The position numbers were made by a program, and so were the translations under genes. Source: Desulfotruncus arcticus DSM 17038 (GTDB lineage: Bacteria > Bacillota > Desulfotomaculia > Desulfotomaculales > Desulfallaceae). From it: 64,000 bases of DNA. Where the stretch lies: positions 1 through 64,000 of the forward strand of contig NZ_FOOX01000009.1 in assembly GCF_900113335.1 (NCBI RefSeq), read 5' to 3'. The notes below the pieces were generated by a model. The model did no database searches and had not been told where the DNA came from. It saw nothing but the letters and a program-made list of their open reading frames with translations. Positions 23,115-27,996 of this stretch are shown piece by piece; positions within the stretch are counted from its first letter, which is position 1; each line of letters begins with the position of its first letter.

Positions 23115-23199
23115 ATATCCAAAGGTATTTTGTTTATAATTATCAAATAGATGATTATGTAGAATAATTGCCTCATGACTGTCGATGGGGGTATGCATA

Positions 23200-25116
23200 A
23201 TGAATGATGAGGAAAAGACAAAGGATCAGCTGATTAAAGAATTGGTTGAGCTGCGCAGCCGGGTCGCTGAATTACAAACAGTTCAAACACCGCGCAAGCA
23301 AACTGAGGAGAAGCTTGAACGAACGTTACGGGAACAGTATCATTTTCTGCAGCGGTTAATTGATACCATACCGAATCCCATATTTTATAAAAATGTTCAC
23401 GGACTATTCACGGGCTGCAATGCAGCTTATGAGGCATATGTCGGTTTAGCCAAAGAGGATATAATAGGTAAATCGGTTTTCGAGGTATATCCTGACGATT
23501 TAGCTGAAATTTATCATGAAAAGGATACAGCTTTGTTTACCGAACCTGGTGTCCAGGTCTTTGAGACTAAATTTAGAGTTGCCGACGGAACACGGCGCGA
23601 TATGGTTTTTAATAAGGCTACATATGAAAGCAGCGTTGGCACCCTGGCAGGGTTGGTGGGGGTAATCACAGATATTACGGACCGTAAGCGGGCGGAAGAG
23701 GCGCTAAAGGAAGAACGGCAAAGGCTTTTTTCTCTTCTTGATTCTCTTCCCGCGCTTGTCTATTTGCAGGCACAGGATTATTCAATTAGTTTTTCCAACC
23801 GCTACTTCTGGGAGGTATTCGGTAAACCTAAAAAAAGACCCTGCTATGAGATTCTGCATGGACGAAAACAACCATGCAGCGAGTGTTCAACTTTCCGTGT
23901 CTTTGATACTAAAACTCCACAAGTATTGGAGGAGGATATGCTTGCCGGCCGGTATTACCGGATTTACCTTTACCCGTTCTCCGATATTGACGGTTCTCCG
24001 CAGATTCTGGTTTTAGGCATTGACATCAACGATCAAAAACAAGCTGAAGAAGCAATGAGGCTGTCGCAGGAATTATTTTTCAAAGCCTTTAACGCGAGTC
24101 CAAGCATGATGGCAATAGCAAGGCTTGCTGATAATAAAATTATCAACGCTAACGACAGTTTTCTTAATGCTGCCGGTTATCGCCGCGAGGAAATTGTTGG
24201 CCTGACCGCATGTGATTTAAACCTCTGGGAAAGTACGAAAACCCGGGTAAAAATAGTTGAGATGCTGCATCAGGGAAAACCGGTGCGTAATTTTGAATGT
24301 AAATTCCGCGCCAAGTCCGGTAAGGGGCGCGTTGGTTTAGTATCCGCTGAATTAATTGAATTTGGCGGAGAGCCATGCTTGCTGGCTGCTGTCAATGACA
24401 TTACCGAAAGGAAGCAATTGGAGCAGGAAATGGCCAGATTAGACCGGCTTAACCTGGTGGGTGAAATGGCGGCCGCTATTGGTCATGAAGTCAGAAATCC
24501 AATGACTACGGTGCGTGGTTTTTTGCAGCTGCTTGGGGAGAAAGCCGGTTGCATGCTATATAAAGACTATTTTAATCTTATGATTGATGAGCTGGATAGG
24601 GCAAATTCTATTATTACACAATTTCTGTCACTGGCCAAGGATAAGCCTGTAGACAAAAATGAACAAAACCTCAATACCATAATCAACACTATATTCCCTC
24701 TTATCCAAGCAGACGTTTATAAATCCGACAAATATGTAAATTTGGAGCTTAACGATATTCCAGATTTATTTCTGGATGATAATGAAATCCGTCAATTAAT
24801 ACTAAATCTCGTTCGTAACGGTTTGGAAGCAATGCAGTCCGATGGAATTCTTACAATAAGAACCTACGCTGATGCTGATAAGGTGGTTTTGGCCGTCCAG
24901 GATCAGGGATGTGGCATTGAAGCAGGTGTTGTTGATAAGTTGGGTACTCCCTTTTTTACCACTAAAGATAACGGGACCGGATTAGGTCTGGCAGTTTGTT
25001 ATAGCATTGCTGACAGGCATAACTCAAAGATTGTAATAGAAACTGCCCCAACAGGGACCACTTTTTATGTGCAATTTCCGTGTAGTGGAGAGATTGCTAC
25101 GCTGAGCTCGCAATGA
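23200..25116 (+). CDS. PAS-domain histidine kinase of the sporulation-kinase type
   Basis: Cytoplasmic kinase, about 638 residues. A short N-terminal coiled coil (ELRSRVAELQ) precedes three PAS domains (about 45-165, 175-285, 290-415), the second with a Cys pair, PCYEILHGRKQPCSEC, that could bind metal or respond to redox. HisKA has AAAIGHEVRNPMTTVRGFLQLL (phospho-His) and HATPase has LNLVRNGLEAM, DQGCGI and GTGLGL. The HisKA sequence with its RGFLQLL extension is like KinA/KinE kinases that feed Spo0A, and no response regulator is next to it. I chose the ATG at 23200 because GGGGG lies at the right distance; an ATG at 23185 is in frame but has no SD. Confidence 0.92.
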   Translation: MNDEEKTKDQLIKELVELRSRVAELQTVQTPRKQTEEKLERTLREQYHFLQRLIDTIPNPIFYKNVHGLFTGCNAAYEAYVGLAKEDIIGKSVFEVYPDDLAEIYHEKDTALFTEPGVQVFETKFRVADGTRRDMVFNKATYESSVGTLAGLVGVITDITDRKRAEEALKEERQRLFSLLDSLPALVYLQAQDYSISFSNRYFWEVFGKPKKRPCYEILHGRKQPCSECSTFRVFDTKTPQVLEEDMLAGRYYRIYLYPFSDIDGSPQILVLGIDINDQKQAEEAMRLSQELFFKAFNASPSMMAIARLADNKIINANDSFLNAAGYRREEIVGLTACDLNLWESTKTRVKIVEMLHQGKPVRNFECKFRAKSGKGRVGLVSAELIEFGGEPCLLAAVNDITERKQLEQEMARLDRLNLVGEMAAAIGHEVRNPMTTVRGFLQLLGEKAGCMLYKDYFNLMIDELDRANSIITQFLSLAKDKPVDKNEQNLNTIINTIFPLIQADVYKSDKYVNLELNDIPDLFLDDNEIRQLILNLVRNGLEAMQSDGILTIRTYADADKVVLAVQDQGCGIEAGVVDKLGTPFFTTKDNGTGLGLAVCYSIADRHNSKIVIETAPTGTTFYVQFPCSGEIATLSSQ

Positions 25117-25163: not shown

Positions 25164-25225
25164 ACCTGTTTTTTTTGTTGGACAATTAATTGGGTTCATG
25201 ATAAAATGTTCGTAATTAAATAAAG

Positions 25226-25430
25226 GTTAAGGCTAAGGTTCCCCTGGGGTCCAACCAGGGGTTAAAAGGGAACCGGGTGTAAGTCCCGGACGGTCCGGCC
25301 ACTGTGAGTGGGGAGCAGCTCCCATGAGCCACTGGGTTTAATGCCTGGGAAGGCGGGAGGTATGCGGTGAACCATGAGTCAGGAGACCTGCCTGGTCAAA
25401 TTGGTATCGCCTTCCGCGCAAAGGCATGGT
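25226..25430 (+). ncRNA. Cobalamin (B12) riboswitch with no downstream gene
   Basis: All conserved blocks of the adenosylcobalamin aptamer are present in order: AAAAGGGAACCGGGTG, CCGGACGGTCC followed by GGCCACTGTGA, the CCACTGGGTTTAATGCCTGGGAAGG region split over the P6/P8 arms, and the B12 box AGTCAGGAGACCTGCC at about 25377-25392. Such RNAs normally control B12 synthesis or transport, or B12-independent enzymes. Here the only thing that follows on this strand is a strong terminator, then the 3' end of the oppositely oriented GH57 gene. It is therefore either the remnant of a lost operon or controls a short or antisense RNA. Confidence 0.92.
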
Positions 25431-25459
25431 GCTTTTCGATTATTATTAATCCAACGATT

Positions 25460-25492
25460 AAGCCCGGCTGTTGTGGAACAGACGGGCTTTTA
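25460..25492 (+). terminator. Terminator behind the cobalamin riboswitch
   Basis: AAGCCCG-g-CTGTT-gtgg-AACAG-a-CGGGCTT followed by TT forms an almost continuous 12-bp stem. It could be the riboswitch expression platform or a constitutive end. No protein gene begins between it and 25564. Confidence 0.85.
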
Positions 25493-25563
25493 AGTTTATG
25501 CCCAATTACTTTTACTCCATACTTTTAACCGGCAAATTTTCGCCGGTTACTTTTTGGGCAAAA

Positions 25564-27996
25564 TTAGCCTCCCTGGTATACCTTGAGTTTATCGCCAAGC
25601 GCGGAAAAATGTTCCAGCCACTCCCGGGCATCAGCATTTTCCTTTGCTTTTTTAGCTTGAACCGGATAAATAGTTTGGAGCAACCCATAATAAACGTTTT
25701 GCATTTTCCAAAGGTCCACTTCAAAGGGCAGGGAGCGGGCCAGTCCGGTTATCAGGTCCAGATTTTTCAGCAAATTCAAGTCCATGGGGTTTTTGAGCCA
25801 GTGTGCAGCCAATCGCTCCATTGTTTTCGCCAGGATATAGCTTAACCCGTCGTTATCAAGGCTAATTTCCAGTTCTTTTGCTTCCTTCAACAGGCCGGTG
25901 ATATATTCTAAGTCAGGGGTTTCATTAATAAAGGATCGCCGCAGGCTGTTATTTAAGTGAAAATCAGCGGCGCAAATCAACGCATGAGGCAGCGGGGTAC
26001 CCATATCTTTTAAAAACCGCATTAGAAAGGCATGGTGCTCGTAGATTTTTCGGTAATCCGCCTCAACTTCATCCAGCGTTGAATTCAGAATTATATCAAG
26101 TATATTGCGCTGCTGATCCTTAAATATTTCCTTAAGTGAATAAATAACCCCATCTTCAAAATAAAAATCAAGCAACCGGATTACCTCTGGTAAATCTGCC
26201 CGGTTAAACGCCGCTGTTGTTTCTTGTTTTAGCTCCCGGTAAAGGTTCTCGTTGGCTAAAGCACCAACACCACAAATTACGTTATGATAGCCGAAATACA
26301 CTACTCCATAACAAACCGTAGCTGATTCCCTGGTAATTTGGGAAGTAATCCTCGCCCGGCCCACTTCTAATTTTGCTTCACCTGTTATAGCCGCTTGTTT
26401 TTCCAGCTGATCTATGTTATAGCAAAAAATTTGAGTTTGCTTGCCATACTTTGCAAACAAGGAACTTATTGCATAATGGGCGCCAACTTTAGGTAGGTCC
26501 ACCATTGAAGGTTTGATGTATTTTTTGTATATGTCTGATCCGTTGCCCAGTTCGCTCCGGTTGCTTTTGGCCTGGGATAATATTTCAAGAAAATCTTTCT
26601 CCAACCCGGCGCCGAATAATTCTTCTGCAAGTTGAATTACCCGTCTTGCGTATTGCAATATTTGAATTGTTTCAATTCCTGAAATATCGTCAAAAAACCA
26701 ACCGCAGCTGGTGAACATCAGCATAGCGTTCCTTTGCATTTCCATTAATTTAAGAACGGCTATTTGTTCACTTTCGTTGAGCCGGTGCGCAGCGTGATTA
26801 TTGAAAAACTGGTCTATGTTTTGGGGTGAACGGTTTAAAATGACTTTGATATATTCGTTGCGCGCAGTCCATGGGTCTTTAAGATAGCGGCGGGCGTCCT
26901 TTTCATAAAGTGGAGTCAGGTTATTGCGCAGCCAGTTCAGAGAATGGCGCAAAGGTGCGCGCCAGGCCTGATTCCAACCGGGCTTTAAACCTGAATGGCA
27001 GCCGCAATTGTTTTGCCAGCGTTCCACCCCGTGGGCACAGCTCCAGGCGGTTAGCTCTTTGATTTCAACCCCATGGGTTGGGGGGTGTAAATCAAGGTAC
27101 TCACCATAATTGGTAATCCGGGCTATTTTATGTGTTTCGATATAATCAAGAGCGTAAGCCAGCGCCATTTCCCCGTGACGGTGGTGGTGGCCGTATGTTT
27201 CCCCGTCGGTGGCAATATGCACAAGCTGGGGGCGCTCCTTTGATTCGTTAAAACCGCCCGCCAGCCGGTGGGCAAACAACTCGCCGTTGGTGAGCAGGTT
27301 TTCAAAGGCAACAGCCTGAGATATGGGCCCGTTGTAAAAAAATATGTTAATATGCCTGTTTGAGCCGGGCAGGTTCAAACGGTAGGGCATAGTTGAGTCG
27401 ATACCTTCAGCGCCTACTTCAATCCAGCCTTCGGTGCCCAATTTGCGAAACCGTCCGGCCTGATACTGGCTGAGGATAGTGAAGCGAATGCCCAGTTCTG
27501 CCATTATATCCAGAGTTTCCAGGTCTACGGCTGTTTCCGGCAGCCACATCCCTTCGGGAGAACGGCCAAATCTTGCTTCAAAATCGCGAATGCCCCAGAC
27601 TACCTGGGTGTATTTATCCCGGTGGTTGGCCAGTGGCATGATCATGTGGTTGTAAGCCTGGGCCATGGCGGAGCCATGGCCGGAAAAATGCTTAATACTT
27701 GCCTGATCGGCTTGGATGATCGCCTCATAAACTTCCGGCTCATTGGATTCCATCCAGTCAAGCAGGGTCGGGCCGAAATTGAAACTGATGCGTGAATAGT
27801 TGTTAAAGATTTTTTTAATCCAGCCCTTTCCGTTTAAAATCCTCGCCGCGGCATTTGGCGCATAGCATTCAAAGCTGATTTTTTCGTTCCAGTCATGATA
27901 AGGATAGGCCGGATCTTGTACCTCTATGGCTTCAAGCCAGGGGTTTTCCCGCGGTGGCTGATAAAAATGGCCGTGAATACAGATGAATTTTTCCAT
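25564..27996 (-). CDS. GH57 family glycoside hydrolase with DUF3536
   Basis: 810 residues. The N-terminal GH57 catalytic barrel opens with CIHGHFYQPPRENPWLEAIE. Further motifs are GHGSAMAQAYNHMIMPLA, GMWLPETAVD (with the catalytic-region Glu/Asp) and HIATDGETYGHHHRHGEMALA. The C-terminal half is the helical DUF3536 region. GH57 enzymes act on alpha-glucans (amylase, glucanotransferase or branching activity), and the precise reaction is not settled for this subgroup. No signal peptide is seen, so an intracellular storage glucan is the likely substrate. The start lies 2 bp after the malQ stop with AAGGAGGAATAACT, so the two are translationally coupled. The orphan B12 riboswitch points into its 3' end from the other strand. 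Confidence 0.9.
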   Translation of the reverse strand: MEKFICIHGHFYQPPRENPWLEAIEVQDPAYPYHDWNEKISFECYAPNAAARILNGKGWIKKIFNNYSRISFNFGPTLLDWMESNEPEVYEAIIQADQASIKHFSGHGSAMAQAYNHMIMPLANHRDKYTQVVWGIRDFEARFGRSPEGMWLPETAVDLETLDIMAELGIRFTILSQYQAGRFRKLGTEGWIEVGAEGIDSTMPYRLNLPGSNRHINIFFYNGPISQAVAFENLLTNGELFAHRLAGGFNESKERPQLVHIATDGETYGHHHRHGEMALAYALDYIETHKIARITNYGEYLDLHPPTHGVEIKELTAWSCAHGVERWQNNCGCHSGLKPGWNQAWRAPLRHSLNWLRNNLTPLYEKDARRYLKDPWTARNEYIKVILNRSPQNIDQFFNNHAAHRLNESEQIAVLKLMEMQRNAMLMFTSCGWFFDDISGIETIQILQYARRVIQLAEELFGAGLEKDFLEILSQAKSNRSELGNGSDIYKKYIKPSMVDLPKVGAHYAISSLFAKYGKQTQIFCYNIDQLEKQAAITGEAKLEVGRARITSQITRESATVCYGVVYFGYHNVICGVGALANENLYRELKQETTAAFNRADLPEVIRLLDFYFEDGVIYSLKEIFKDQQRNILDIILNSTLDEVEADYRKIYEHHAFLMRFLKDMGTPLPHALICAADFHLNNSLRRSFINETPDLEYITGLLKEAKELEISLDNDGLSYILAKTMERLAAHWLKNPMDLNLLKNLDLITGLARSLPFEVDLWKMQNVYYGLLQTIYPVQAKKAKENADAREWLEHFSALGDKLKVYQGG

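Follow-up and report, generated by a model that had tools for sequence, protein, structure and literature searches.

In Listeria, the non-coding RNA Rli55 is gated by a B12 riboswitch and its long form is made without B12; Rli55 and AspocR apply equivalent B12 logic in other pathways, and the SAM riboswitches SreA and SreB act in trans on prfA (PMC8079631). A computational set of antisense-acting riboswitches, which read into the opposite gene, over-represents the cobalamin class (PMC9943018). Here, we describe a cobalamin riboswitch in a 64 kb stretch of the Desulfotruncus arcticus genome (the whole stretch analysed, hereafter the window) that probably belongs to a stand-alone non-coding RNA gene, whose small RNA would be made at low B12 and block translation of acsC, thus sparing B12. 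Cofactor sparing is the task of RyhB-type sRNAs, which shut off the users of a scarce cofactor and pair at the Shine-Dalgarno sequence or start codon. The regulator of RyhB is the repressor protein Fur, whereas the sRNA of the window would be gated by a riboswitch. Our search of the open-access literature, of limited coverage, found no report of a riboswitch directly gating a base-pairing sRNA for cofactor rationing; the claim is credible because precedents exist for each half of it.

The aptamer (25218–25409, + strand) is the sole Rfam match within the window and fits RF00174 over its full length (1–189/189; 124.6 bits, E 7.4e-31, gathering score 31.5). Just 5' of it is a sigma-A-type promoter (25179–25207, +; TGGACA-17-TAAAAT with an extended -10 TG), whose blocks TGGACAATTAA and TGATAAAATGT show no differences from the sister species Desulfotruncus alcoholivorax. 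The P13 hairpin GCCTTCCGCGCAAAGGC (25409–25425, +) follows, and its loop is able to pair with that of terminator 1 (T1; 25460–25491, +), where GTGGAA (25473–25478) is complementary to the TTCCGC kept in L13. T1 is a strong stem that, in RNA folding, forms both in the entire transcript and in the 3' portion alone; its U-tract has four U in the window versus five in D. alcoholivorax, and a pattern scanner missed it because there are only four. P13, T1 and the complementarity of their loops are preserved in the window riboswitch, which is predicted to respond to B12.

Across the family, the T1 loop GGAA goes with P13 CCTTCC (10/17 vs 0/17, Fisher P 3e-4) and GGGAG with CCTCCC (10/17 vs 1/17, Fisher P 2e-3); in this count the window is outside the ten positives, its second terminator having been taken in place of T1. 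Such covariation agrees with a pairing of L13 and the T1 loop without ligand that would compete with L5-L13 when the ligand is bound. Among 96 family cobalamin riboswitches (L001–L015, L172–L258) the P13 loop co-varies with the loop of the next terminator, which suggests a general antitermination pairing in this riboswitch group.

The D. arcticus genome has 15 cobalamin riboswitches, 14 of which are followed by a gene, mostly for corrinoid or cobalt functions (including cbiZ, cbiK, cbiJ, cbiQ, the DBI phosphoribosyltransferase family, DUF4430 proteins and an FMN-binding/periplasmic-binding fusion); the one without is that of the window. From its 3' side up to the convergent GH57 gene, spacer included, there is no + strand ORF of note, and the original prediction of a complete, terminator-bearing aptamer with no gene behind it holds; a small protein encoded ahead of GH57 was rejected as a candidate because the spacer has no such ORF. 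Six of the 15 riboswitches (L003, L006, L010, L011, L012 and L014) lie within ~45 kb on G000:C20, beside cbiZ, cobO-like, cbiQ-like and DUF4430 surface-protein genes, and this group is probably a corrinoid uptake and salvage cluster.

The spacer between T1 and GH57 (~72 nt, 25492–25563) carries a second conserved module with a second terminator. Module 2 contains a C-rich, single-stranded seed, CCCAATTACTTTTACTCCATACT (25500–25525, +), which is complementary to the acsC translation start, with an exact 12-nt match at 25512–25523; terminator 2 (T2; 25526–25555, +) reads TAACCGGC-AAATTTTC-GCCGGTTA and then CTTTTT, and is conserved in D. alcoholivorax. Elsewhere the unpaired stretch is AAACCCA..ACTCCATA; the window's seed is weakest in its start-codon half, which is degenerate (GCCCA and a long spacer). 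What comes after riboswitch and terminator is a non-coding module that lacks an ORF and has a terminator of its own. This resembles Rli55 (PMC8079631) and EutX of Enterococcus, in which a B12 riboswitch and terminator precede a non-coding RNA and the long form, made without B12, keeps a B12-dependent pathway off, as is predicted from sequence here. In those systems, however, ANTAR hairpins sequester EutV, whereas the window unit has one terminator hairpin and an mRNA-complementary seed. Inspection of the window fold 3' of T1 found a single hairpin (8-nt loop) and no ANTAR paired-hairpin motif for EutV, and an ANTAR decoy was rejected on this ground. We also rejected a pairing between the seed and UGGGU within the aptamer, a sequence missing from the G005 and G007 aptamers.

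The opposite strand carries a gene for a GH57/DUF3536 protein of 810 aa (25564–27996, -), a convergent neighbour outside the unit. The original prediction placed T1 directly against this gene and took read-through RNA for a possible antisense regulator; T1 exists, but module 2 and T2 lie between. The convergent orientation does suit an AspocR-like antisense role, and by orientation alone the locus fits the published antisense-acting set (PMC9943018), while module 2 and T2 speak against it. The T-run of T2 ends at 25555, ~8 nt short of the GH57 stop codon (25564–25566), and up to this predicted end the read-through RNA has no overlap with the opposite gene; D. alcoholivorax has an additional hairpin with a T-run in the spacer, most copies of the unit in other genomes lie away from GH57, and GH57 loci from 19 further genomes outside the genus carry no riboswitch. 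We therefore regard antisense control of GH57 as very improbable. As with AspocR (PMC8079631), a repressing RNA working through complementarity would be terminated in response to B12; AspocR, however, is 1.4 kb long and cis-encoded opposite pocR, whereas the window RNA would stop before the opposite gene and have its target elsewhere in the genome. T2 may also terminate GH57 on the opposite strand.

D. alcoholivorax DSM 16058 (G001) has the riboswitch at the corresponding position, flanked by a spore-germination permease gene and GH57 and again with no gene behind it. The comparison within the genus covers two species, D. arcticus (G000) and D. alcoholivorax, which differ in GH57, MalQ and the permease at 40%, 33% and 43% of 4-fold degenerate positions, respectively. 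Between them, P13 shows 0/27 differences (25405–25431), the aptamer 30/192 and T1 4/34, with T1 kept and its pairing improved in D. alcoholivorax. There, a long spacer that contains the additional hairpin separates T1 from the conserved stretch and second terminator. Module 2 has 3/46 differences (P 2e-5 to 5e-8 against the neutral rate), counted in a separate alignment, the extra spacer of the sister having displaced it in the automatic one; the seed, taken by itself, matches at 13/14 positions (P 0.005–0.03). Conservation of T2 alone is not decisive because of its possible service to GH57. As judged from these substitutions, the gene-less unit is under purifying selection, and since it is conserved despite 33–43% neutral divergence, it reads neither as a decaying relic nor as a GH57 antisense RNA. 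The suggestion that a B12 gene was lost here, to be recognised by a gene after the riboswitch in relatives, was rejected on this conservation as far as recent loss is concerned.

The succession of riboswitch, T1, seed and T2 was found in the window genome and nine others (G000, G001, G002, G005, G006, G007, G008, G009, G034, G044), of which G002 and G005–G009 belong to the family of the window and G034 and G044 to the same order. The common arrangement, behind cobalamin riboswitches, is AAACCC(A/T), 0–10 nt, ACTCC(A/T)T, a GC hairpin and, in most cases, a T-run; units were defined by conservation of this motif before the target was known. The strict motif lies 3' of 7/96 family riboswitches, compared with one on the 5' side and none for the reversed motif. 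The surroundings of the unit differ: it adjoins GH57 in the window and G001, a convergent SNF2-type helicase gene (named from sequence) and its neighbour in G006, and in G008 the same upstream gene as in G006 with a multicopper oxidase gene 0.5 kb off. G007 has no recognisable gene nearby, the sequence around it in G009 resembles, as judged by eye alone, a promoter and an rRNA leader, and in G044 the unit lies between trxA and uspA. An iron-dependent-repressor-type gene is found in G005, a second riboswitch with a DUF4430 gene in G002, and cobO in G034. In G013, a riboswitch resembles that of G007, and the sequence 3' of it consists of N. The AACCCA..CTCC pattern with a T-run, scanned over 113 genomes, returned G044 and several known units, the rest being near the reversed-pattern background, and a looser pattern gave no riboswitch-linked match in 12 genomes without a known unit.

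Recurrence also bears on the reading of the locus as a relic leader, in which promoter, aptamer, T1 and module 2 would be leftovers of a lost corrinoid gene. Elsewhere, corrinoid genes have very similar riboswitches in front of them, and related versions of module 2 stand before cobO in G034 and before cbiZ in two leaders, because of which the unit may descend from a corrinoid-gene leader and part of module 2 may act in cis. Units without a corrinoid gene, however, have a T2 with a clean T-run, and those of G006, G007, G009 and G044 recur without a gene and with a strong T2, while the T-run is not clean in G034, G002 and the two cbiZ leaders in which a similar stretch occurs. Together with the gene-less conservation in two species and the complementarity of the seed to acsC, this makes a relic quite unlikely. 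The proposal of a B12-responsive small RNA, made from the window alone, gains support from the apparent selection on the unit and its recurrence without a corrinoid gene. The leaders L003 (G000:C20:150838, cbiZ), L207 (G007, cbiZ) and L302 (G034, cobO) each contain a related C-rich stretch and hairpin, and they may be leader-derived versions of the unit RNA, or cis-acting.

We searched both Desulfotruncus genomes for the 12-mer complementary to the seed, allowing one mismatch. Total matches were at background level, and the only exact match at a start codon, in both genomes, is acsC. Its start site is AAAGGAGTATGGAGTAATGGGTTTAACAGG, reading MGLTGLEIFKQLPKTNCKDCGQPTC; the ACTCC half of the seed pairs with the Shine-Dalgarno sequence and AAACCCA with the start and codons 2–3. 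The gene lies between acsB and a CooC-like gene and was identified as acetyl-CoA decarbonylase/synthase gamma (NF003195, 591.9 bits). AcsC is the corrinoid iron-sulfur protein and depends on B12. A one-mismatch match to a response regulator in G001 was rejected as a second conserved target, having no counterpart in G000.

In 10/10 genomes the seed pairs with its own acsC start at -25.8 to -31.1 kcal/mol, and at most 1/200 shuffled seeds (preserving base composition only) did as well. Set against the starts of 96 other genes, acsC comes first in eight genomes, third in G009 and second in G000, where 1/96 decoy starts pairs better. The pattern GGAGTN0-4ATGGGTTT occurs 18 times in 11 genomes, and acsC is the one site recurring across them. 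We also scanned the 89 usable regions downstream of family cobalamin riboswitches, each against the acsC start of its own genome. Ranks 1–6 fall to the six units that have ACTCCATA and lack a corrinoid gene (G000, G001, G006, G007, G008, G009), and ranks 10 and 14 to those of G005 and G002. The rank sum of 21 for acsC is the minimum possible, versus at least 165 for 24 decoy starts with a good Shine-Dalgarno sequence (0/24 likewise); because these decoys never come near it, the pairing is not merely generic anti-Shine-Dalgarno. The genomes are related, and counts across them are not independent. In a small sample of related genomes, genus g4, G007 and G009 have both the unit and the acsC site, the unit is missing and the acsC start altered in G004 and G011 (ATGGCTTTA, with no GGAGT before ATG), and both the unit and acsC are absent from G014 and G015. 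Relatives in which a unit was not found likewise conserve the acsC start, and so its conservation is not evidence by itself. Codons 2–6 of acsC (GGT TTA ACA GGT TTA) do not vary among 11 genomes of the order (L338–L356, L438–L445), which holds for only ~10% of other synonymous columns; this invariance extends to genomes without a known unit and was dropped as specific evidence.

A conserved, unpaired seed is thus complementary to the translation start of one mRNA across species, as for a trans-acting sRNA. The RNA might be B12-regulated and yet have a different job, such as acting on other mRNAs, binding a protein or buffering B12 through the aptamer, the acsC match being secondary. Half of the seed, complementary to Shine-Dalgarno sequences, is generic, and one-mismatch 12-nt matches are present elsewhere; acsC alone recurs among the tested genomes, however, its ranking against decoy starts is high, and ANTAR-like paired hairpins were not seen. 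Such a different job seems rather unlikely to us.

From the observed parts, conservation, recurrence, complementarity and specificity we infer the transcripts, their B12 response, the pairing in the cell and the direction of repression as follows. The promoter would drive the cobalamin riboswitch. With B12 bound, L13 would be held by the aptamer and T1 would end the RNA at ~280 nt; at low B12, L13 would pair with the T1 loop, and read-through would give a ~340-nt RNA ending at T2 (the T2 form being longer in D. alcoholivorax). The exposed anti-acsC seed of this RNA would block 30S binding at acsC, and with AcsC synthesis blocked, scarce B12 would not be tied up in this major corrinoid protein. 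SreA is active as the terminated RNA with its ligand bound, whereas the seed of the window unit would be in the read-through form. On balance, we also favour the existence of a riboswitch-sRNA chimera family shared by Desulfotruncus with related Clostridia; in its members, a cobalamin riboswitch would gate a trans-acting sRNA against the Wood-Ljungdahl corrinoid iron-sulfur protein at low B12. If true, a metabolite sensor directly gates a base-pairing sRNA to ration a cofactor, a B12 counterpart of the iron-sparing sRNAs in which the metabolite controls the sRNA directly, and B12 supply is tied to the central carbon pathway that sulfate reducers and acetogens use. A rule for 'orphan' riboswitches would be to check each for a second terminator and a seed before it is classed as relic or antisense.

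Some sRNA-like loci without a riboswitch have an anti-acsC-like stretch and a terminator. They comprise L291 (G008:C48:155394-155462, -), L297 (G037:C12:51873), L293 (G055:C1:1178315) and L292/L299 (G019, G067); for L291–L293, L297 and L299, a biased set because they were found by pattern, pairing is about -20 to -29 kcal/mol. The stretch is just 3' of a promoter-like site in L291 and L297. In the window, a PAS-histidine kinase gene (23185–25116) lies between the spore permease gene and the riboswitch; it is missing from this place in D. alcoholivorax, and a repeat-like stretch, GTCATTACGAGAAGCAAAGTGACGTGGCAAT, is found 3' of it.
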